Assembly: GCA_963402885.1 (NCBI GenBank)
Contig: OY727093.1
Location: 26,101,409-26,165,408, forward strand
DNA length: 64,000 nt
Reading direction: 5' to 3'
DNA from: Antedon bifida
Taxonomy: Eukaryota; Echinodermata; Crinoidea; Comatulida; Antedonidae
Made by a program: the position numbers and the translations under genes. Shown here in pieces: positions 3,001 through 64,000 of this stretch. The first letter of the stretch is position 1. Every line of letters starts with the position of its first letter. The notes under the pieces were generated by a model. That model had not been told where the DNA came from and made no database searches. It saw nothing but the letters and a program-made list of their open reading frames with translations.

Positions 3001-6000
3001 CTAAAATTATCATAGAAAAGATAATGTAATGTACTGTACTAATAACTATATTATCGCATATTCAACCTTGTAATCGCGCCCATCTCTTCCTCCACAATGT
3101 GAATTTTGTTTCTATGTTATTAATCCACAATCGAATTTCGAACCTTAAGCTTGGTTCCCACTGACGTAACGCAATGACGTAAACGCAACGCAAGCGTGTT
3201 GACCAATGACAAGCGACAGTTTGTGATTGGTCAACTTACGTTGCGTTACGTCCTTGTTGTGTTGCGTCTCTAGTGGGAACCAATGTGCAATTGTATTAAT
3301 TTTCCTTAGATGCTCATATTACTGTTTTCCAAAACCGAAGTTTAAAAACCAGAGCCGAATAATTAGAGCCAAATCATAACGGAACTCAAAGTACTGTAAA
3401 ACCACTTTCCTTCACCTAAAGTTTGTTGACTCAGTCGTGCCTATATTGTTAATACGTACAATGGATTAGATTCTACTTCCTACTTCAACATATCTTTTGT
3501 ATTAAGATTCACTTATGATTAGTTCTAAATAGTTGAAGACTTCCTAAGTACGCCACTCCACTTCCCCTGGATTTTAACTATCCGTTCATTAAGACGAATA
3601 TAATTATAGTTAATTCCAGATAGTTTGTTCTTTAATACTTATAATTATAAGTGCCGGACCTATACCAATTAACATATGCTTTTGTATAAGTTTTATCAAT
3701 CTTCAAATTATGCGGTTGTTCTAAGAATTAAATTAAATCACATCACGTATTTTGTTCGTTTACGCAATAAGTCGAATTGAAGTATAATGTGCTCTAGTCC
3801 TATTCATTCATTCATTCGGTTTCATTTCACAATGCATCACACTTGATAAGTTATTACAGAATAATTCAAAGTATTAAATACAAGATGCAAAGCCTGGAAA
3901 AAACAAATAAGCTCAATATATAGAGCTTTAAGCCTGTATTCACCAGAACAAAATAACTAACTAATAATAATTCTATCAAATAATAATAATAAACAATACG
4001 TACATTTAGGCCTAATTAAATAAGATCAGACAAGTAGTCTTAATTAAGGTGAAACGAAATCAAACTGTATCATGTATTTCAATATCTCTTTTTCCAATCC
4101 AGGTTTTGTTCAGTGTCTATTTAATTTGAATCACTTAAAGCAGGGAAGAGTGAATTTAGTTGTAATTTCACTCTTCCTTTCTTAAAGCAAATCATAACAA
4201 TTGATATGTTGAAAGAATCGTTTACGTCAAATTCTTCCGGAAGGGGGAATAGTGAAAAGTGTAATCTCACTCTGCTCTGTGTAAATATAAACATATACGT
4301 CGTTAGGATTTTAATCCGCGACTACAGTTCTCGACCACCGCCTTAAAACTGTAATGACATGATTTCTTAATTAAAATTGTACGAATAAGATTGATTTTTT
4401 TGTATTGAACTTACACACACACTGTTGATATTTTCCAAGGACAAACGACTCCAGGTGCACACGGGTCCTTCTTACATATTTTGGAGGCGTCGCAACTTTC
4501 ATCTATATTAATACAATTGTACAGTGTACGAATTTATAATATGATTGCAATATCGTTTTAAGGTACCATATTTAATAATTTATTGTTCTTGAGGGGTTTT
4601 AGGGAGGTACGTTTATTCGAAGGAGGCGTTTATTTTGTGGGTGTAATTATGTATATTCAAATAAATGCTCCCTCCATGAGAAAATACAACACAGTTAAGG
4701 TCTAATATCAAGAATAAAATACAGTAAAAATTGTGTCAAAATGCATGGTAAATTGTAGATCTTGAAAGCCATGAATTCTACTACAAAATAGAAATTTGTT
4801 ATAATACAGTATTCAGAGGGTGGAGAGGGGGAGTGGGGGAGCGTTTATTAGTGGCGGAGTTTATTCGAGTAAGGTATACGTATATAAGTACTCTAGGCGT
4901 TGATTTCTGTTCTGATGATGAGAACAGTTTTCTCGAAACATGTCACGGTGTTTTATGGCAGTTTGCCTATTTATCAAATGCCTCTTGGTTTTAACTCGAA
5001 AGTTTGGTGGTATCATACATGATTTATCTAACAAATAGAGATAAAATAATATAGGCTTAGGCTTTCATATCTATGATTATACTACATAAGCTGAGGGCAG
5101 CAATTCAACTTACCCGGCCTGCATTTGCATGTTTCACATCCGTTTTCATCTCTTAAATACCCAAATGGACAATTAAAAAGGCAATTTAAATCAGGACATG
5201 GACCTACAAATAATACAATAGCTCTTTTATTCAAAGTTGTTAGATTGTTCATTATATTCGTTCATTAAATTCATAAATGTTTAGCAGTATTTGTTCGTCT
5301 TATTTTCATTTATCATTCGTTCATCTTAAGTATTCGTTCCGGCTATATTCGTTTATTTCATATTATTAGAATTACTCATTCATACATTCGTTTATTCATT
5401 CATTCATATTTATCTCCATATTTTTTTCATCTATATACGCTCATTCATTCATTCGTTCATTAATAATTCATGAACTGTTTTCTATTCATTCATTATGTAA
5501 ATGTTTTTTTTTATTTATGTTATTTTATCATTTGTTATCATATTAATATTATTCATTCATGTATTCGTTTAGTCATATTTATCTCCATATTCTTTCATCT
5601 ATATACGCTCATTCATTCATTCGTTCATTATCATTAATAATTCATAAACTGTTTTCTATTCATTCTGTAAATGTTATTTTTATTTATGTTATGTTATCAT
5701 CTGTTATCATGGCTTACCCGCTGTGCATTCACATATGTAGCAACCGTTTTCGCGTGTATATCCGTACTGGCAATCGAGCAATGGACAGTTAAGTCCTGGA
5801 CAGGGCCTTGGTGTAGTTGATTCCTCGCCTGGGCCTAACAAAATATAATTAAAAAATAATTAAACCCAACTCTTAATTTTAGGTGAACGTACTACAAATA
5901 TTGCAATTGAATGTTAAAACATGCACAACATTCTGAGAAAAAGGAATGTAGATTAGTTGATTTTATGGGGGTGTCATATAGGATAGCAACACCAGTAAAT

Positions 6001-15643: not shown

Positions 15644-17462
15644 TGTATTTATGTTAAAATTTCTAATCAGTTTTTTGTCGATTTGTGATGGTTTTTTCCG
15701 CGCGAGCGTGTTTTCATTTTAATGTCTACGGAACGCCAATTGAGTCATAGAAAATACTATACTATATATCGCGCTAAAATTGAGGTTTTACATTTATTGT
15801 TTGAAATGCTATTAGAAGTCTATATTTATCATATTTCGTTAAATTAACACTTTAAATTGACAGGTCTTGGTAGGTCTTGGTATTTAGGAGGACCCATAAA
15901 TGACGATGACCACTCAGCTCAGTGGCAAGTACTAGCCCCCTTGAAAAAAGGTCCACATTTTATAGGGTTTAAAAAAATTATATAGTGTTAAAGTATTAGA
16001 AATTATATACTCTAGTTTTGTGGTTTATGTAAAATAATTATATTTAAAGAAATCAAGTTTTAAAGCTATAAATTATAAGGTCATGGGTTAAATGGAATCC
16101 GATGTGTAAGAAAGAATAGCGTAAAAATTTGCCAACTGATGCTTCAATGGTTATTGTGTCGCCTATTGTAAGAAGACGTGGTATTCAATTCACAAGGTTC
16201 CTGTCTATTTCGTAGTAAACAGGTAAGGTATTGCAGTAATTATCAACATTTTCTGTTTCTTTTTGAGTAAACTTTTGATAAAGTGTATTTGATATAATAA
16301 TCGTAGGCATAGGGGAGGTAACAGGTGTATGTGAGTGAGTGATTTATTACGTATGAGGTGAGTTAGTTGACGTATGTAGAGACATACTTAATTTGAGGCT
16401 AATATTTATGTAGATAGTGCTATTCTGCTAAACTATATTTAAACACGTTTTGTGTAGACCTATGATTTTCCCCATAGAGCTCACAAAAGCGCTTAAATTA
16501 TTCACTCGAAAAATATAGCGTGTCAAACCATGAAGGGATATATTTCCTCCATGATAAAAGAGAACACCTGTATATTAATATTATTCATGACGCAACAAAA
16601 GGCTTGTGGTCCGGGGCAGCTCAGTCACGGTGCCGATTGAACGTAGGGCCTACGCAGTCTCCTTTTTTCATGATGACAATCATTATTTGCATCATGTTGC
16701 ATCAATGTTGCCATTAGTTACACTAAGCTGTACATGCACTACTTAATCAAGGTATTTGATATTATTATTAATATGGCGCCCCACCCTTTCTACCTAATGT
16801 ATCGTATTACCATACTATATAAATACTTTTAAGTGCACCACTGCCGATCTTTACATTGTTAGAAAAACTCTTTCTGTTCGGTAACCTTAATTCAGTATAA
16901 GCATGACCCTTTGGTAGACTTTTGAACAAATAACCCTTTCATATTATACTTTCTATTTACATCATTGTTGTACGCAGTGGTTGACGGTTGAAAGCCTTAA
17001 TGGAGTGTGAATTTCGTTTGTTTGTCTGTTAATAAGATTTTTAAAAAGGGATTTAATATACTTTGCAGCACTACTGTAGTACTGAGGTTTATTATTCACC
17101 TGTTTTATTGGAGACCTTACCGGTTCAAAAAACTATAGACAAAACTGATCCAGGGTAATTGACGCTGGTTGCCTGCGAAAGGGCAGTGTATTTTCTATAA
17201 AGTCAGGTAGGCACCAGGGGTTTATCATACAACATAGGAGCAGTTCAGTAATGACATTACAAATTAACTGCCTTTGTAAATAAAATTTAATAAAACATCC
17301 GTCCCTGTAGATAGCTTAGTTGGTGATTTAACTTGACAATAATGTGTATACCATTTAAATATTCACAACTTGCAGGAAGATCCATTTAACACTTATTGTT
17401 ATTCTGGTACAGTTTAGTAAAAACGCTTGACAAAACTTGTTGTTCATAGATTAAATATCAAA
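15644..17462. other. Divergent intergenic region PEX11 / SLC22-like
   Basis: 1.8 kb separating divergent start codons. AT-rich; no convincing ORF, RNA gene or paired repeat seen. Confidence 0.55.
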
Positions 17463-20400
17463 ATGGATATCGACGAATGTCTTAAGAAAATAGGAGGTTT
17501 TGGCCGATATCAAGTCATTCTTCTTATTGTGGCACCGATAATTCAAGGAGTATTTACCAGTTGGCAAATGCTGTCATCTGTATTTATCTTGTACGCACCA
17601 TCGCATCATTGCAAAACAGACGAGAAGATTGACGTTGCCATACCGATTGAAGAAGATGGAACATTTGCAAAATGCAGTATGTACACATTTGATGGAAATG
17701 AGACCACTAGCTGTGTAGATGGATGGGTTTATGAAGAATCTGACAAAGTAACTTCATTAGTAACAGAGGTAATCATTATACTTTTCCTCCTTAGTGAAAA
17801 CTTAAAGATAAAACATAGGCCTATACAGTTCCTTATCGAAAACCTTTAATAAAATTGAGATATACAGTTTAGGCCTAACTGGTGATATCTTGAGTCAAAC
17901 ATTCGACCGGAAACAATGTGTCAATTACTGTACTAGAAACTTACATTCATTTAGTTTTGTTGATTATTATTCATATATAAGAAAATCAGCATTTATTTTT
18001 TTTTTACATTTAATACATTAATATACCGTGTTAAGAGATTTGTAAAGTGTTACAATGTAGCCTGTTTATTCCTGAATTTCAAGGTTTTAAACAAAAATAA
18101 ATCTTAACTAAAAGCTAAAGCTAACAACTCTGAGCAATATAATTAATTCTTTGTCTCTCTGTTTAGTATTGTTGACTCGGAAAGTTTTTTTTTCGAGACC
18201 TTGGCATTTTCTTTAGTTGACAGTTATACGTTTTTATTATCTGTAGCCTATATTATAACCGAATCGCATATATCATAATAACATTTTTTTTCATTTCTTT
18301 ATTATCTCAACTAGTTGGATTTGGTATGTGACCAAGCGATACTCTCCCCAAATGCAATTTCTATATTTTTCTGTGGTATTCTTGCTGGGTCTGTGATCAC
18401 TGGTCAGCTATCTGACCTGTTTGGGCGCAAAACTGTTACTTGGCTTGGCATGATGGGAACGATCGTCTGCGGTATTATTTTAGCGTTTATTCACAACTAC
18501 ATTGCCTTCGTCATTGTCTGGTTCTTTCTAGCAAATTTTGTAATGGTAAGATTACTTATCAGTTAGATAATAATTTATTTACAATTGGATATGACGTTTT
18601 CTTGATAATTATCCGTCCGAGAATCATTCTAACTGGAGTGATATAAATGTTTATCATTCAGGGCACCTGATCTGAATTTTTGTCCTTCTTTAATTGCTAT
18701 TATTTTTATACTTGATTGGCTTAAACTTAATCTCCTATTCCATAAGTTTGATATTTATTTTTGTTGGCAATAAAAGTGAATGAAATGAAACTTTAATCTT
18801 ACTCTAATTAATTGAATTTTCTAACATAGTATGATCGTCTAATAAAGAAATCAAACACCGATATCAGTAAAAAGTATATAATAAAGTAAAATAAAATATG
18901 TTATGTTTTTAGGGCCAGTTGACTTGTTCCTTCATTTTATTATTGGAATTATTCCGACCAGAGCAACGATCACTAGCCTGCTGTATCGCTACTACAGCAT
19001 GGGGATTTGGTCTATGTCTACTGACACCAATCGCGTACCTGTTACAAAACTGGCGACATTTTCAATTGGCCATCACACTTCCTATGATACCTGCTCTTCT
19101 ATTCTGGTGGTAAGATTTTTAGTTTCCAATGATACTGTGGGCCTAATTTCTTATCCTAAACGGTGATGTGTTTGGCATCTATTAATATAATATTCAAAAC
19201 AGTATGTACAACATCTTAATCTAATTCACATCGTCAAACCTATAGTACTGGAATATGTATCTGGAAATGACAATAATCACAAAGAGTTTGTTTCTGTAGC
19301 TTTTTACCTAAATACTATTATCTGCTTCTTCTTTTTTTTATATAGGTTTCTTGTTGAGTCTCCACGATGGCTTCAGTCGGTTGGACGTCACGAGGACGCA
19401 AGACGCGTTCTCGAGAAAATGGCAAGATTCAACAAAGTCGATTGTAGCTTTCTTGAAGAAGGATCAAAACAAGAAAGGTTGTTAGCTAAGGATAAACAAA
19501 TGAATCCTGAGTCCCATGCAAAGAAATATTCTGTGTTTGACACCGTACGAACACCGAATTTGAGAAGATGGACTTTGGTGTTGTTTTTCATGTGGTAGGT
19601 TTCATAGATTAGACATTTTTTTAAATAAATATTACAAATTGTAATTATTATATCATATTTATGTCATATATCCTTTTTTTTTAGTACATCTATTATCATA
19701 TTTATTTTTTAATTTAGGACTGTGAACAGTTTAGTTTACTATGGGTTGGCGCTAAATTCGTCTGCCTTGGCAGGAGACAGATTCCTAAACTTCTTTATTC
19801 TTGGCTTAGCAGAGGTTCCAGCATACCTTTTTCAAATATGGGCATTACCTAGGTACGTTAATGTATATCAATTGTTACGGCCTTACCATGTTGAAGCACC
19901 GGTTCTCCTCAGATCAGTTAAGCAACGTCGGGCCTGGTTAGAGCTTGGATGGAGCTGGGGTCCCATTAGACATTTGACTCTTATGGCAGACCTTGCATCT
20001 AGTATCTGCCTCAGACGTATTAGATTATGTTTCTCCTCTGGTTAAGGTGGGCACTGGACGAGAGAAGCCCTTAGTCAATGTTGGGACCAGCCAAAGGTGC
20101 CTTAAACAGTCCTGGCTTAGTCATCATTCAAATGAATGTAAGACTAATTGACATTGTCGTTTACGACAGAAGTCGGCCATAATGTATATCAATCCAGACA
20201 ATTATCCAACCATGAAAAAAGGTGAAAGTGGCAATTTAATTCCGAAAATAACTTTAAAGATGTATTGTTCTCCAAAATCATGAAAAATGATGATTAATAA
20301 AATTATATTTTAAATATGTTGGTTTTGATAACGTTTCAGTTTCTTTTGCCTTAAATTAAATTTTTCAGGTAATTTTTTTTTCGATCCAATTTTTGGTCAA

Positions 20401-29839: not shown

Positions 29840-32800
29840 ATGGAGGCTTCAACCTCAAATGGAGCTGCAGATTCGGATGATTTAAATTCGAATTTAGACG
29901 ATGAGACAACACCAGATATAAAAGAGACAACGTCGGATGCTGTAGATGACCTCTTACCAATTCTGAAGAAGTATGTCGGTGTATTTTTCATGCTTTTTTC
30001 GATTTGGTTTATGGGATACTGTGGCTTCAGCAGTAGCTGGGTATTCATGATAGTTATTGTGCTGCTGCTTCGTGAAAAAGCAACTAAAAGAAAAGAAGTC
30101 AAACTTTTAGTTGCCAGACAAGCTGTAACAAGTGAAAGACAAGTAATAGAAGCTGCCGTTCAAGAATTGCCATCATGGGTAAGTCTAATCTTTATTTTAA
30201 TTTAGTGTAAAGAAATGGCCTACTACTAGACTAGGCCTAGTTCTAGTAGTACTAGTATACTATTAGTACTACTAGCCTAGCTAGGCCAGCACTCTACTCT
30301 GTAGTTAGTTCAGCAGATGCCTATTTTCCTCCAGTGGATGCAATTACAACTGTGTAGGCCATGTGTCGGTACCATCGATCATAATCGTATTATCTTTACA
30401 GATTTATGAACATCATAATATATAAATGGTAGCACGATTTTAGAAAATCCTTGCGCAATTTCAAATTGCAAAAGGATTTTTTTGCGCAATTTGAAATTGC
30501 ACGTAACTTGTGCAGTTTTAACACAAGTTAACACTGTAACAAGGCATTATAAAGGAAAATCCCCATCGTAATTTAGTATGCACTCAAGCCAATCACACTT
30601 TCTCATATCTCTGATTAAAACATAAAATGTTTCATTCCTTGTATTATAAAATGTCATTCTTTATATATTATGCATAACAGATTACAAGCTTTGATTGATT
30701 TATCAAATACTGAAAATACCTTGCACTGTTTGAAATTTTCTAAATTTAATAAATACTTTTGAAATTGTTCGTGCAAGAGAATCCTTGTGAGGTTTCAAAT
30801 TGTGCAAATGGCATAAATAATAGATAAAGTACAATATACAATGTAGTATCTACCCATTCCATTTTTTACTTTTCAAAAAAGTGTAATGCCACTTTACAGT
30901 AAATCTGTAAAACCAACAGCACAATAATTGTTATTGATTTTACTCTCTATTTCACTGACATGACAGTATTTATCTCTATCATTATATTTTGATATGTTTA
31001 CGACAATTCATATATAAACTCAATAGTATATTCACCAAGGATTAGTTATTTTGTCTGAAGCCTTAACCATTCTTGTGGTTAATAAAAAAACAAATACAAG
31101 TGTACAATTGAGATATTCATCACTAGTATCATAGCATGTTGTGTGGGTTGTTTTTAACTATTAACACAATTATACTCATGGTTGACCATGCTGATAGGCT
31201 CATCCCTATACTTTTGTTTGTATAAGTCATCATACAGTAGTCCAACTTGGAAATATACAGAAGATTAGTTTTGGTGTAAGGGTTTACATACTTTTATGGC
31301 AAACTTAGGGTTACTGTGCAGTATCTACAGTGTTTGGGCCTGGTTTTTAGCATATAACTAATATCAAGCCCAAAATGTGTAAGCTCTGTCTACACTATCA
31401 AACGTTATGTGACAAACAAATGTGATGTGTCCTTATGGTCATGATGTCATATCACTACCATATTTGGGCACATCACACTTTTTTGTCAAACTAGTTTGAT
31501 AGTGTAGGAAGAGGTTAAGATGTAGTAGTAGATTGTGAGACTACCCCTTACAGTAGGTCATAGAGCAAGGTGGTTAGAATATAACTATAGGTTCAGGATT
31601 GAACCATGGACCTTGGGACTGGAAGGCAGACACGTTTAACCACCAAGCTACAGCTCAACTTCACCATTTATCTTTGATTATTGCATGCTTAGAATGTGTA
31701 GTTTTTTTAGCTTAAAGATTCAAAGAAAATCGTTCCATTTCATAAAGCTGTGTTATTTAGAAATAGAGCTATTCAACTTTTTAAGTATCCAGGTATCTCA
31801 CTTGGTGTTTGCATCAATTTACTTTAGATCATAAAGCTGTGTTATTTAGAAATAGAGCTATTCAACTTTTTAAAGTGCTAGTGCCACACTTTCGACAAAT
31901 ACGACATTTACTATTATCAGTATCAAGAATAATATATGTAGATACTGTGTTGAATTGAGTTTCAATAATAAATTGTTATATATATGGAAAAAAAAGCAAT
32001 ATGTGTGTCGTTATTTGGTCACGAAATGTTACCTTTCGACATTTGTGTGTGACGTCACAGCCATAACACCGACGATATCGAGAGGAGGAACTAACCTGCA
32101 TCTTGCGCCTTATAACACACCCCGCGGCGATCACAACAGGCTTACTGAATATTTGTTATGGATTCCGAAAGCGATTTAGAAAGTGTTTCATCAGATAGAC
32201 CTAGTAGTAGTAGTTCATCATCAAGTGATGAGGAAAATGGTACTGGCCTTATAATACCATATAATTTCGAACCACGTTTTGAGGAACATGAATTACAAGA
32301 CATTGATGAAGAAGCCCAAGGTGAAGATGTTGACATGATGGCTGCACGCCTGGATAATTTAGAATGGTAGGTGTTCCCCTTGTGGTTGTTGTAGTGAAGC
32401 GTCTGCTTGATTGGGCTAGGCCTAATTAATCAATCGAAGCTAGAGCTACCTCAGTGTTTCTAAATTCTAAATATACAATCGATTTTGTTTTTTTTTTCAA
32501 ATTTTGTGAGATGCCATACGTTAATATAAAGTCCCCATCATATTGTTTGATGATTATTAGATGGGTCGGATTTGGGACGGTGGTTTAATAAATAGGCTAC
32601 TCCTTGGCTTGGCTTTGATTATAATAATAGATAGACTAGGCCTAAAGTATTAATATTCTGGTCATAGTTCAAATGGGCAAGAGCTAATTATATTTTCATT
32701 AAGCAAACATTTGAATTTCACTTGCTTGAGTGACTGCTGATATGATCAAGTAATTATAATCATAATAATTAGTTTTATAATGACTAAATACATTTTTTCA

Positions 32801-35800
32801 TCTTGTTCAGGTGTTCCTGTGAACATTGCCAAATCATGGGCTCAGGGGAAGAGTGCATCTGCTGCAAGGAGTGCGAAAACACAAGTGCTAAACTTGAAGA
32901 CAATGTCAATCTGTTCAACAATGATGCTCCATTCTCCTGCATCACAAATCATCCAGGTTTCAAGTCTGTTGCTCTTGACCCTTGGGTGCTGGAAGTAGCA
33001 TGGCTTTCGTATAAGCAACACTATGATAAGAAAGTTATCTATAACGGACCAAAAAACAAAAAGTACCGTCACATATCGTACAGACAGTATGCCCGATGGA
33101 TACATGGATATGTCGGAAAAAATATCCGTATAGTGCTTCCGTCTTGTGTTGTCTCTTGCATAAGAGCACATTTCCCACCACCTGGAGATGACCCGGTTTT
33201 TACAGGATTTAAATTACCAGACCTAAATTAAAACAGCCATAGCAGCATTTTAATTTTCTTATACTATTTAGTATTAGTTTAATAATTTTTTGAAATTAAA
33301 TAAAGTAATAATGTATACAATTTGCAACTCATTTTGATTTTATTGCTTCTCTCATTCATATACATCTCCAATACATTGTTATTGGGGAAAAAATGAAAGA
33401 GTCTGAAAATACAGTACATTTTATTATGTCTACAATAATATGCTGTGTTCAATTCATTTATATGAATGTACATATAATTATGTTGATGCGTTATTCAAGA
33501 GTCTTCTTGAGGTTGTTATGGAACCAAATCGCAGCATTTGAAAGACCTGAAAAAAGTGCCAAGTGTCAAGTTATTATTGCTTTTTAAACCGGCTTGTGTG
33601 TTGGGCAACTGCAGCACTTTTTTCAGGTCTTTCAAATGCTGCGCACAATGATGGTGGTATGGTCTCTGTAAATGCATCTAGATTTGGTTCCATAACAACC
33701 TCAAGAAGACTCTTGAATAACGCATCAACATAATTATATGTACATTCTGTTAAAAGTTTTTTAACAATGTAACCCCCTTTCTTGTACTTGGGAAATGATA
33801 TTACGTATTCCTTTTCTCCAGCCTTATTTACCATTTGTTCTCTGGTACTGTTCTCATTATAGTGAAGAGCAGCTATGAAAAGTCGACTCTTCATTCCACT
33901 ATATGAAAAGTGGAACATTTTAGGAGCGAAATGATTAATAAGGCTATGGTACCCTTCCACTGATGACGTTTGCCCATGAGGTGAAGAATTGCGAATGTCC
34001 TTCACCAACATTTTGGTTTCAACAAATTTTTGTAAGGCATCACAAGCTTCAGTATCAGCAGTCAACCACTTTGTTAACCGTTGGTCTGAAGGAGACATTA
34101 CCGGATGGGCACATTCCGTATATGGTTCAGGATGTCCAGTATGAAGATTTTGTACATGTCTTACCACAGACTTCCACTTTGCTTCAATGATATCTTTTTC
34201 ATCAATGTTGGTGGACATTACACACCAGTAATAATGGTTAGAAATAGATTTTTGCCAATTACCTAAAAGGTTACACGATTTTTTTGTTGATATGGCCTGA
34301 ATCTTTTTCTTAATACTTTTTGCAATGTGCCAGCAGTCAAAATAATGCTTAATGTCTGGACAATTATCCCTTAAATATTTTTGTAGTTGTCTATGTCTAT
34401 CGGAAACAATTGTACTTATATTTACTTTGAAATCTTTAAAGACATCCAATGTTTTTTGTAGACCCTTCAGTTCCATATGATAAGATGATTTAACATCACT
34501 ACTCTGAACTAATTCAACATTCAAAATCTTGTTTTCGGTCAAGTCAACTGATGTGTATGAACCATATTTTGCACTGTGGCCCATACTGTCACAGCGTCCA
34601 TCTACTCCAATAGAAATATCCTTGCCCTGTAATTCAGCAAAGTGCTTATCCCTTTTAAAAAACCAAGTATTCCTTACAACTCTGTGTAAGAAATTTTGTT
34701 GGTGACGGAAAAAAGTACGTTTACTAATGGCGCTCACGTTGATACTTTTTAGCGCTCTTAAAAATTGTGTGGGTGTTGAGCCAGAAAAAAGAATAGCCCC
34801 ACTTAGTAAAATATTACCCATTGGGGTACCTCTAGCTTCTGGCTGACTTTTCCACTCGCGGTTAGTGTGGCAACATAAGCATCTTATGTTTGCAATAAGC
34901 ATGCTTCCCTTGTTACGACAACATACTTGAACTTTACTAGAAAAACAGGAAAGGCATATAGAAAGTAGCATCAGTAGCTGATTGTGAAAAACAATGTATT
35001 TTGGCTGTCTATGTGCATCCCCATTAAATCCTTTCATCTCATCATCTTCCATCTCTGTATCCTCACCATCTGAAACTGATACATCCTCTTCAGGTCGATA
35101 ATCTGAATCGCTATCATCTTCTGTCGACTCATCAAAATCTTCATCATCTTCATCAGACGATTGTTCTTTGTATGTTGGTTTGGCTTTTTTGGGTGCCACG
35201 ACTTTAGCTTTGCTCATTTTTCTTCGCCGAGCACGTTTTCTTTGCTTTCGTGTCTGTGTGCCTCTGGACACCATAAGAGGCTTATCGCATACACTGGCCA
35301 GCTCCTGTTCATCCTCTTCCTTATCCTCTGTTCCAGTAATGAGCTCCCTGATCACTCTCGCCTTTTCCCTTTTAACAAATGCTGACCTGTTGGAATGAAT
35401 ATTAATACTATTAATAAATAAATATCAGACAAACCTAAACATTTTTTTTTTTATTTATTGAATCTATTACACTAACCTCTGTGCTGTACACTCTTTGGCC
35501 ACCTGACCACCATCGTCGGATGTCTCCCTCACAACATGTATTGTTGGTACCGCTGTTTTGGCATTCAGTAAAAGCCTAAAAGTAGTGAGGAAACCGTTGT
35601 CCAGTTAATATTAAGGGCAAAATAACGCAAGCAATATAATTATAATATAGTTGTTAGTTCCCGCTTACACCGACAGGACATTCTCCTACTGAGCATAACA
35701 GTGTAGGCATTGACTACCCTCCATCATGATTGTACAGCATTCAGTAAGTAGTACTAATTAGGCCTGGCTAGGCTAGCCCTATCCCATTATTATATTATAA

Positions 35801-38800
35801 TAAGCCAAATACATAACAACTAGGCCTAGCCTAGTTGAGTTATCTGTGTGTGTAGGCAAAACTAGTTACTAATACTTATTATGTTATGTTTATTTAAAGA
35901 TAAACCAACATAAAGTAAATACTATACACATATCAGGCGGAGCAACTGTACTGTATGTATGTAGTTTTATTGTTACTGCAAATTATGTGCCCGCGCGCCT
36001 AGAAGCTAGGCTTGGCCCAACAGGCCCATCAATAGCGACGGCGAACGTATTTTATGCAGTTTTTGTTGAAGGTAAAATATTAAAAGTAAATTCATCTAAT
36101 TAACAAATACCTACTTTGTAGCTAGACCAGCTTTGAATTGACCCATGTTTGTAAATGAATCGTCTGAAAAATGCTTAAAACAAAGCACTGATCGAGCTGT
36201 GGGTTTCCATTTATCGCGTTTTGTACGTACAAATCTTGTCCATTGCCTGGCGATGAAACTGTCCTTTGGCCACCGAAACAATAAGTTATTTTCATGATCA
36301 CAATTCGCAGCAACACAGCGAGAAGGCATATTGATTTATTATAATAGATAAATAAAAAAGTAGCTGACAATAATAATAGTTGAACAATAACAATTAGTAC
36401 CAGTAGAAAGCAGTATGCAGTATATAATATTAGTAGTAAACCAGCGTCTCATGCATGCACGTGTGTTGTTTTAAAAGGCGGAAGTAGAATGTCTTCTGCC
36501 TGTGACGTCACGCTTATAAAGTACGATGGCATATTAACGTTCTTAATTAAGAGGTGATTACGGCCATACCGTTAAAAGTAGGTCAATGCAAATTTCGGTC
36601 AAGATTTATAGACATTAAATCTACCCAAAATATCATTAATATCTGAATTTAAAGACTGTGGCACTAGCACTTTAAGTATCCAGATATCTCACTTCGGTGT
36701 TTGCATCGATTAACTTTAGATAGTAATAATCAGTGTTTAAGTATGGTATTCTTCTAGATAGCTTTGATGGGGTGAAGACTTAAAATCAGGTCTAATAGAT
36801 CTGTATGTAACTGTAAAAAAATGTGCAATTGATTTGAATGAAGTGTACCAAGTGCTTACTTAATGAATACAGTTACTTGAAAGATACAGTACTGGCCCAC
36901 TTTGTGAATCCTTTGGTTTGGCGTGGGTCATAACAAGGCCTCTTGGTTAGGATACAGTACTGTACGTGAAAATAAATAAATACAGTAATACAACCTGCCT
37001 ACTTAATTAATACTCGCAGCACTGGCCCACTTTGTGAATTCTTTGGTTTGGCGTGGGTCCCAAGCCCTGTTGGTTAGTATACAACAGTGTAAATAAAAAA
37101 AATAATTACTTGGAATTGATTTGAAGGAGCATACAACCCGCCTGCTTATCAAGATACAACACTGGTCCATTTATTTGGTTTTCACATGCTCATCACAATC
37201 TCGCTAACCTGTGACTATTATGATAATTCAAAGTACCTACATACTCTGATACTGTGATTGACATATTATTCCTGTAACTGTACCTACTGTACTACAACTG
37301 TACCTACTACAACTGTACCTACTACAACTGTAAATAGCATGTTAACTGTACCTAGCATGTTAACTGTACACAACACAGGCAAGATGTTTTGAATTGATCA
37401 CTGCTAAACATACTCAGCATTCCTAATGAATACCAATCCCTAATTCAAAGGATGAAAGAAAAACCTACACAAGATAATCCTACATGTCATAGAATTTTTT
37501 TAACAAAACTATTTATGTTCCAAACTGTACAGTTTAGTCAATCTTAATTTCTTTGTAAGTTGATTGTAAGGTCATCAGTTACAGTACAAAAACTGCTATG
37601 GTATCATACTGTATTGATTGCAGAAATCAGTCAAAAAAAGAAGAAAAATAAAGCCAAAAGATACCATAGAATTTGTGTAAAATACACAGTATAAAGAAAA
37701 TGTGTTATATAAAGTCAGACTGAAGTTGTACTGTAGTGGTTGCCATATTAGAAAAACAAGTTTTCATTTATATACAGTATGTTTAATGTTTTTTTTATAG
37801 GTTTATTTTCCGGACACCGAAAGGGCAGAATGGTTGAACAAGGTACAGTCGTTTTTCATACAGTAGTAGTTTTACTTCCAATTAAAATCCAAATCTGAGA
37901 ACCTTTAACATGTTTCTAAGTAAAACCTCATATTATCAACTTTACATTATATAATAAAACAAAGAAGTACTGTACAGTACATTGAATACAGTGTTTTACG
38001 TTTTTAAATCATTTACCATATTAACCGATTTTACCACAAATTTCAAGTAACAAAGCAATCAATATTCAAACCATTATTTGAATTTAATTTGCTGTAAATG
38101 ATATTTAATGTGCACAGGATGTCCCATGACCTTTGTGGGTGTGTTATTATAATTTCAAAGTATACTGACACAATATCCTGTACAGTACTATGATGTTAGA
38201 TGTTGTAGGCTGTATGAATACATTAAGGCAAAAAGAAAGTTCAAAGGTTATAGTTTATCTGTTACCATGAAGTTGATAGGCCCTTCTCTCCTCCATACCC
38301 TTCTCTCACCACTCCCCCCTACTCCACACCCCTCTCTCACTGCTTTCCCCTTGTTCCACACCCTTCTCTCACCACTCCCCCTACTCTCACCACTCCCCCT
38401 ACTCTCACCACTCCCCCTACTCTCACCACTCCCCCTACTCTCACCACTCTACTACTCTTACCACTCTCACCACTCCCCCTACTCCACACCCCTCTCTCAC
38501 TGCTCTCCCCCTGCTCCACACCCTTCTCTCACCACTCCCCCCTACTCCACACCCCTCTCTCACTGCTCTCCCCCTGCTCCACACCCTTCTCTCACCACTC
38601 CCCCCTACTCCACACCCCTCTCTCACTGCTCTCCCCTGCTCCACACCCTTCTCTCACCACTCTCCCACCGTCCCCTCCCTTCTCTCACCGTCCCTCTTCT
38701 CCACACCCTTCCCACACTTCTCTTCTCTTCCACACAATTCTCTCTCTCCGCCTGTCTATCTTCGCCAGCTTTCCTCCACTCTTCTTCCACCTCCCACTTC

Positions 38801-61498: not shown

Positions 61499-63298
61499 TT
61501 AATAATTAGTGACGGTGCGTGATGCTTCTAACGGAACATTCGGTGAATCAATTGCTCTTGCTAAACGCATCCAAAACACATCCCGACCCTCTTCCTTCGG
61601 CCATTCAATATACGTCCTTTTTTTCAACACCTTTTTCAGTAGTAAAGGCATCGATGATACTTTTACATCTTCGAGTAAAATGGTGACAAACACATCTTCG
61701 TGCGTATCAAACGTGCGGTTATGCGCCATCTCCATTTCAAAGTGACACCATTCACTGTGTACAAAATGCTTAGTGATGACCAGAACAGTTTTTCGACTGA
61801 ATTTCACAGAATTGGCAATGTTTTGAGCAATGGCTTCACCAACCAAAAAGTCCCGGTAGTCTACACAGAGCTTAAGGTTATAAGGAGGTGCTTCTAGCGT
61901 AGGCTGAAGGACCTTAACAATCCAATCTTGATCTTTACTATTATAAGATATAAATGCGTCGTACTGTATGTTTTGGTCTAGGGGCGGGGCTAAACTCTGT
62001 GTAATACGTTCGTACTGCTTACGTAATTTTCGTCTTTGGTAAAAATATCTGAAATATAATATAGATAACGCATAAATAACTGTACGTAAGTATCAAACTA
62101 GTTATGTAGTATCTGGATAAGAAGTATGCATGTATATTTACTATCTCTATTAATTTAAATAAATTGTTCTGATGGTTGCCAAGTTCAATTCTACTGTATT
62201 GTTGGTACGGGAACCAAGTTACTAATTAACTTACCTTATATTCCATCGGTGATAGAAAATTAAAAACGCTATACTAAAAGCAAAGGCAAAAACAGAACAC
62301 GATACAACAATTATCATTAGGGTACGCGATTGACAATGTAGCACATCTTCATCGATCGCTGAAACACACTTTTTTATCACTTCTGATGGTCCACTTGCAC
62401 ACCTGATTTGATCGTAAGATAACACTTGTACCGACGTAGCATTTAGCCATTCTTTTAGCCAGACAATTCCACAGTCACACGCATATGGGTTGTTTTGGAG
62501 GCTCACTTTCTTCAGACTATTTAAATCCTGTAAGTGAACCTCTTTTGTAATACCAGTTAATTGATTGTAAGCTACGTTTATTTCAAGTATATTAGGTGAA
62601 CCGGAGAACATATTTGACGGAAGACTAGCAATCGAGTTATATTGAAGGATTACACGAGCTAAGTTTGGTAATTGATGAAACAAGTCTTGTGGTAATTTAC
62701 GAATACCGTTGTTGTTCAGCACGACAATGGTTAGATTTTGAAGATGAGAAAATGCATCTTTTTCAACTACTCTCACATGCGAATTTTCAAAAGATATCCG
62801 TTGTAAAGAAATAAGTGGCTCAAGCCATTTCTTATGAACTATAGAAAGCCCACCATTGTTCGATAATTTAAGTTTCTGAAGCTGTGCAAGTCCTCGAAAT
62901 GCATTATCGTCTATATTGCTGTGGTCTAGCTTATTTGATGAGAGGTCTATATAACTTGCGATCGGAGTACTCTTAAATGTATCAGCACTCAACTTTGAAA
63001 TACTGTTCCTAGAAAATTGCAGTACAACTGCATCGGTGGGTAGATCGTTAACTGGAACCCGCGTAAATCCTCGACTTGAACAGTCAACATAATGAAGATA
63101 TGTTATTATAGATGCACTAGGTGTGAGGTTGTGTCGACAGTATTTGCAATGACACGTTTTAGGACATTTTAGAACGTCCGGTGACTGCACTGTAGTGTTC
63201 AAAACTAATGGATTAACGTCGTAGCATTTTTTCTTCTTACAGTAAGTAAAGTCTGCGAAAATCAGTAAAACCCAACAACTGTACAACCGACTGAACAT
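61499..63298 (-). CDS. Short Toll-like receptor (LRR-TM-TIR)
   Basis: Two exons, 63298-62235 and 62048-61499 (phase 2 join), 537 residues. Signal peptide MFSRLYSCWVLLIFADFTYC; LRR N-cap Cys cluster (CPKTCHCKYC...VDC); about seven LRRs; LRR C-cap (NPYACDCGIVWLKEWL ... C ... C ... C); membrane helix at about 326-349; then the TIR domain encoded by exon 2. TIR boxes: YDAFISYNSKD (384-394), LCVDYRDFLVGEAIAQNI (415-432), and FW near the C-terminus. The BB-loop position that is Pro in signalling TLRs is Val424. The ATG at 63298 is used because the reading upstream of it begins at a GTG. Far fewer LRRs than vertebrate TLRs (20-25), as in short invertebrate TLRs. Innate immune receptor by family; adaptor use and ligand unknown. 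Confidence 0.93.
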
Positions 63299-64000
63299 TA
63301 TATACACAGTTGTAAATAGTAGTAAACAAAAAATGAGCTGATATTACTTATACGGCGCTGTCTGACTTTAAACTTAACTATAAAACCGGAAATACAGCAA
63401 TATTATTTGACAAATCATCCACAGTGCAATGTTCGGTTGTTCATGAGGGCGCTTTATATCAAACAAACTTTTTAAACTGAAACGCGTATAAAGCAATATT
63501 ATATGCGCACATAATTCGACCCTTTTAGTATTTAACATAACTGGTTAATATGACACCATCATATAATAACGTGATATATGCGCATATATAGCAATAATAA
63601 TTGATTTTTTTAAAAGGCCATATTTTGGCCATTTTTCGAAAAAGTGCAAAATTTCGACTGTGTTCAAGTACCACCAAAATGGGTATGCTAGCGCACAGTG
63701 CTAAACTAAATTCTATTTATTATCACTGGTCTCAAGGACCACAAAAATGGGTTTGATAAACGAATCACAAACTAGATCCTATGTATTATCACATGTGTTC
63801 AAGTACAACCAAAATGGGTATGGTAACGTACAGAGCTAAACTGAATCTTATTTATTAACACTGGTTACTTGATCAAGCTTGATATTATTTTAAAGCTTAT
63901 TATGTCTGGCTGTACACATTATAAGGAATGGGATTTTTAGAGTCTAGGTTTAAATGTCTAGTAGAAAGGAGGCTAAACACGTAAGTTCTGGTAAGTTTTG
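63299..64000. other. Upstream region of the Toll-like receptor with a tandem repeat
   Basis: 63655-63865 holds about 2.5 copies of an 85-90-bp unit with cores CAAGTACCACCAAAATGGGT, CTAAACTAAATTC and TATTTATTATCACTGGT. No further gene seen up to the right edge. Confidence 0.7.

Follow-up and report, generated by a model that had tools for sequence, protein, structure and literature searches.

We analysed a 64,000-nucleotide stretch of the genome of the crinoid Antedon bifida (assembly GCA_963402885.1, contig OY727093.1, positions 26,101,409 to 26,165,408 of the forward strand; hereafter the window), in which positions 31874-36671 hold a 4,798-bp Kolobok DNA transposon. Comparison of its ends identified a left terminal inverted repeat of 15 bp, starting 5'-AG, at 31874-31888 on the forward strand and a right one, also of 15 bp, at 36657-36671 on the reverse strand. 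These inverted ends (AGTGCTAGTGCCACA) agree exactly over 15 bp, or over 19 bp when TTAA is counted, and are flanked by identical TTAA target-site duplications at 31870-31873 and 36672-36675. The termini, AG...CT, follow the 5'-RR / YY-3' pattern of Kolobok. The element interrupts an 89-bp tandem unit, and an intact neighbouring unit (31740-31828, forward strand) shows the pre-insertion site with its single TTAA: compared with the flanks of the element, it is identical over its first 45 bases to the left flank as far as TTAA, and its second half matches the right flank.

Inside the element lie two convergent spliced gene models, both built from GT-AG sites and the open frame: KolX on the forward strand, which encodes a P2X7-ballast-like protein, and a transposase on the reverse strand. 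KolX has two exons, 32158-32366 and 32811-33231, the second of which carries the seven-cysteine ballast domain and the stop codon; the model product is 209 aa long, with a single stop at its end. The transposase model (708 aa) consists of exons 36329-36115, with most of the THAP domain, 35575-35477, where an alternative donor adds two residues, and 35386-33574, with the DDE core, the DxxH motif and the stop codon. The THAP domain was identified by Pfam (E 3.7e-9, 37.7 bits against a cut-off of 23.9), and the Pfam DDE-type models remained under their cut-offs (MULE 19.5 of 27.6 bits, ISL3 14.6 of 23). By motif alignment the DDE residues are D367 or D371, D434 and E582, with DxxH at 455-458, and both motifs align across the element families A-I described below, family F being without the first D block in the aligned stretch. 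Kojima and Bao (2022, PMC9587614) describe Kolobok transposases as having a C/DxxH between the second D and the E, with a zinc finger lying between that motif and the E. A sequence-only reading of the window had proposed a Kolobok with a THAP-DDE transposase, exact 15-bp inverted termini, TTAA duplications and two convergent, intron-containing, uninterrupted genes; all of these were recovered, with the empty site alongside.

The same reading had assigned the second gene to the P2X7 ballast domain, and this identity was borne out. The Pfam profile P2RX7_C (PF20478) matches the window protein with an E of 3.7e-16 (60 bits against a cut-off of 23.5) and is its sole Pfam domain, with no P2X channel joined to it. 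The motifs from which the assignment had been made (YRxYxxW, LPSCxxxxIRxxFP and GFK) are all present, and four distinct sequences of solved P2X7 structures match the protein at 6.4e-5 to 1e-3. In alignment with the P2X7 ballast (PDB 6u9v, 8tr5, 9e3m), it keeps all seven zinc cysteines and positions R546, H547, Y550 and R578, and, unlike P2X7, it has extra residues inserted between the CC pair and the following cysteine. The guanosine-nucleotide contacts of the P2X7 ballast are R546, H547, R574, R578 and K583 (PMC7016195), of which three of five (R546, H547, R578) are kept in the window. Across ten aligned KolX rows, R578 is present in all ten, R546 in nine and H547 in five, whereas R574 and K583 are kept in none; the seven cysteines are found wherever the rows cover them, those of families D and E and of locus L016 being without the first part. 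Among viral contigs, the KolX pattern was met in 10 stretches, none of which is a relative.

According to Kojima and Bao (PMC9587614), Kolobok elements of the Kol0 lineage encode KolX as a second gene, and this protein resembles human P2X7 residues 476-595, the ballast fold. The probable identity of the window protein as KolX rests on that published equation. The same source proposes that P2X7 is the product of a fusion with KolX, considers Nanor a likely domesticated KolX, and states that stand-alone ballast relatives had previously not been recognised as transposon parts. The earlier survey of the ballast domain across animals (Rump 2020, PMC7016195) describes it without a transposon link, and its main text contains no word beginning 'transpos'; the Nanor and nanor-like proteins, or ZCD, described there are likewise stand-alone ballast domains.

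Both ends of the element were searched against the 315.6-Mb genome. They were found in the window and in one more full copy on C16 (L022), each end 100% identical; a further 64-bp stretch of the left end, at 92%, lies on C10. From TTAA to TTAA, L022 is 99.565% identical to the window element over 4,824 bp, with identical borders, and differs from it by 3 substitutions and one 18-bp gap. Its KolX is identical at 209 of 209 residues and its transposase at 706 of 708, so that both genes are retained in the only full copy of the family besides the window element. This copy also sits inside a tandem array, the units of which contain TTAA. Because the two full copies differ so little, the family has been mobile recently, and the window element has the look of a young and intact one.

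Stand-alone ballast-domain genes are often annotated as P2X7-like in invertebrates. In the present genome, the P2RX7_C profile gave 42 matches in 36 loci, and a separate search gave at least 84 transposase matches (71 of 280 candidates scored) in 40 loci. For 28 of the 36 KolX loci, a transposase match lies within 5 kb, convergent in all 28 cases, against ~ 0.0014 expected per locus. Three further loci, all of family B, have a diverged convergent transposase (E about 3e-11), and L033 has a weak convergent match (E 1.5e-6), bringing the loci with a transposase to 32 of 36; the remaining four are L014, two matches in L016 and one in L034. Of all 36, 28 were read in sequence (27 fetched loci and the window), and the other 8 were judged by position only. 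The suggestion of the sequence-only reading that such genes are mobile-element genes thus holds in this genome: KolX is a regular element gene here. In one whole genome, stand-alone P2X7-like domains stand beside a transposase at most of their loci.

The fetched loci (labelled L) were grouped into families by DNA likeness and by their ends. Family A comprises the window element and L022, B comprises L009-L011, C comprises L012-L015, L027 and L029, D comprises L017-L021, E comprises L023-L025, and H comprises L030, L032 and L035; L026, L028 and L031 are the single members of F, G and I, and L033, L034 and L016 are unplaced. The KolX-side ends compared are those of families A-E, G, H and I, with F, L033, L034 and L016 left aside. 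At this side, the end reads TTAA followed by two purines in all eight of these families, the exception being L029, one of the six family C copies, which reads TTGA. A scan of the 27 loci for ends (at most 2 mismatches in 14) with TTAA flanks returned 7 loci; with seven other AT-only flanks on the same loci, ends were returned under two of them (ATAT, 3 loci; AATT, 3 loci) and under none of the other five. L014 (2850-6317, on C8) is a bounded family C copy in which the KolX exons are kept and the transposase core is deleted, a non-autonomous element carrying KolX only.

The two proteins also diverge together. Pairwise KolX and transposase distances among the nine families, taken from alignments anchored on the window proteins, are correlated (r 0.71, p 0.0001, or 0.0006 with fewer shuffles), and they remain so when family E is removed (r 0.41, p 0.012) or when both D and E are (r 0.47, p 0.006). 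Between D and E, the last KolX exon has a nonsynonymous divergence (dN) of 0.18 over 56 codons; the synonymous divergence (dS) was not computable and is read as saturated.

A further shared feature is the palindrome GTGACGTCA, of the cyclic AMP response element (CRE) type. In the window it occurs at 32049-32057 on the forward strand, where TGACGTCA starts 177 bases from the tip of the element and 100 bases remain to the KolX ATG, and at 36503-36511 on the reverse strand, where TGACGTCA starts 162 bases from the tip and 173 bases remain to the transposase ATG. Across six families it lies 139-198 bp inside the Kolobok ends, at 10 of 14 family-ends, with the G outward in all ten (loci: window, L020, L025, L028, L030, L031, L032). 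The depth of TGACGTCA is 172-198 bp at both ends in G, H and I, and 139 and 149 bp at the KolX ends of D and E. Thirteen family-ends were scored for a site within 300 bp, and the site was absent from three of them, namely the KolX side of B, the KolX side of C and the transposase side of D; at the transposase side of C, as read in L012 and L014, it is absent too, which completes the 14. The count does not include family F, neither of whose ends was located, or the transposase side of B and E, which was likewise not located. No GTGACGTCA besides those near the ends was found in the seven bounded elements. In L033 and in L036 it occurs once before a gene, in L038 it lies near the end of the transposase matches and not ahead of a gene, and L026, L034 and L037 have no full site.

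Shuffled sequences gave a chance of 0.0024 per end for GTGACGTCA. In the real flanks outside the elements, 20 sites were counted in 132,726 bases, mostly in a few repeats; excluding the site-rich flanks leaves 5 in 124,253 bases, and the fuller count was used. This flank background corresponds to 0.044 per end and to 2.4e-11 for 10 of 14. As it precedes the start codon of KolX by 100 bases and that of the transposase by 173, we read GTGACGTCA as a putative CRE-like promoter signal of both genes, and its presence near both ends suggests that KolX and transposase are under common control. In the literature, as far as the searched text extends, no paper combined 'Kolobok' with 'TGACGTCA', the papers listed by wider searches included none on Kolobok, and the available part of the Xenopus Kolobok paper (PMC6004289) contains no word beginning 'TGACGT'. 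The present analysis adds to the published pairing its regularity within one genome, and the palindrome near the ends, which may be new.

We consider it almost certain that the window holds a recently mobile two-gene Kolobok of the KolX-bearing (Kol0) kind, in which KolX is a regular partner gene, presumably a partner of the transposase, and not a receptor. The Kol0 lineage (Kolobok-1_XT type) is described with the same TTAA, 5'-RR ends, DDE transposase with C/DxxH and second gene KolX (PMC9587614). Chance capture of a host gene by a single element would account for the two tandem KolX end exons of L016 (4018-4329 and 4814-5143, on C12), which adjoin a family C element, and for the KolX fragment of L034, since no partner transposase was found in the stretch fetched for these three KolX loci; the lone transposase match in L016 falls in a piece of DNA that L016 has in common with L013. 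The L016 pair is a candidate for remnants or for a host-used pair. We nevertheless give this explanation hardly any credence: the second copy keeps the gene and most KolX loci have a convergent transposase, so KolX is not a chance passenger, and the P2X receptor exons found, at two places on C7, are separated from the nearest KolX match by at least about 0.49 Mb. A piggyBac element would share the TTAA duplications, and a few piggyBac families carry a KolX-like protein (PMC9587614). This reading is just as implausible given the 5'-AG termini, which follow the 5'-RR rule by which Kolobok is distinguished from piggyBac (PMC9587614), the THAP domain and DxxH of the transposase, and the lack of any Pfam piggyBac match up to E 1 among the proteins of the window element.

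The function of KolX leaves more room for alternatives. KolX might, instead of serving transposition, shield the element from host silencing or adjust host nucleotide or zinc signalling, as may be suggested by the service of the same fold in a membrane receptor and by three fetched transposase loci (L036-L038, outside family A) at which no KolX match was present. These three were fetched, along with L035, from the 12 of 40 transposase loci that had no KolX match in the genome-wide search, and L035 does carry KolX. We regard a host-directed role as possible though the less probable course: a direct partner agrees better with the constant convergent arrangement of the two genes and with the correlation of their distances. 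Several points do weigh against the favoured interpretation of KolX as a zinc-binding transposition partner, or against the assignment on which it builds. Some lineages, as L036-L038 indicate, may do without KolX or have lost it. The single-sequence fold model of KolX exon 2 was unusable (predicted local distance difference test score, pLDDT, 37.4). Codon differences in KolX are 33 amino-acid-changing against 15 silent in family C (non-independent pairs summed, mostly pairs with L027), 1 against 2 in B and none in H, and with so few of them, selection on KolX cannot be read from these counts alone. The Kol0 assignment, moreover, would follow from KolX as the second gene and not from a transposase tree.

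The transposase would bind the element ends through its THAP domain and would cut and join at TTAA in a cut-and-paste manner, and KolX, presumably a small zinc-binding protein, could act with it in end pairing, target capture or activity control. A parallel may lie in the P element, whose transposase, like THAP9, combines THAP and RNase H domains, has its own GTP-binding insert, needs GTP for pairing and joining the ends, and in contrast to Kolobok makes 8-bp duplications (PMC7776569). Since the P2X7 ballast has a guanosine site and KolX keeps part of it, one could guess that KolX supplies a nucleotide-dependent step to the Kolobok transposase, although we would put little weight on this. To our knowledge, the P element has no second gene of the KolX type. 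An extended version of this guess, equally speculative, is that KolX, acting in trans, would give the Kolobok transposase the guanine-nucleotide-dependent step for which the P element transposase carries an insert within its RNase H fold, that the GDP/GTP site of P2X7 would be a relic of transposon end pairing, and that GTGACGTCA, lying at a similar depth in both ends, would tie the promoters to host factors of the CREB/ATF type. The two near-identical full copies make family A a good subject for the function of KolX, which would bear on the role of the P2X7 ballast domain before it joined a channel.

The sequence-only reading had also suggested a transposon as the possible source of the receptor domain. 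This central idea is already in print (PMC9587614), where P2X7 is proposed to have later acquired a KolX-type domain. Our data are consistent with it, and the direction is not proved, as the tree linking P2X7 to one KolX family is weak. In the tree of KolX and P2X7 domains that we built, as that reading had recommended, P2X7 joins family B with support of 66/24 where long branches meet, which gives P2X7 no firm place, and naming a KolX family as its source was dropped for that reason. Among the KolX proteins compared, that of family B comes closest to P2X7 (110.7 bits to P2RX7_C, E 8.6e-18 to a solved P2X7); it is without the insert of the window protein, and the Kolobok-type element that encodes it has an end reading TTAA-AG. 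This KolX is a candidate for a form close to the one that joined P2X7.

The repeat scan also identified a fold-back inside the window element. An inverted copy of the transposase 3' end lies between the two genes (33457-33559, reverse strand), and its partner arm lies inside the transposase coding end (33614-33754, reverse strand). The hairpin is near-perfect, at -167 kcal/mol as RNA, and has a counterpart in L022 (4313-4446 with 4501-4596). A read-through transcript would give long double-stranded RNA, perhaps acting as a silencing trigger. As a general Kolobok feature the hairpin was rejected, because the k-mer scan of the 27 loci showed it in family A alone, in both copies; a BLAST scan had not listed it even in family A, so the k-mer counts are given. 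L014 and L027 have inverted repeats at places other than that of the family A hairpin. Elsewhere in the window, open frames at 61499-63343 (reverse strand) encode leucine-rich repeats and a TIR-like domain, by eye probably a Toll-like receptor, and open frames at 17421-19598 (forward strand) encode what resembles, also by eye, an organic-cation-transporter-like protein.

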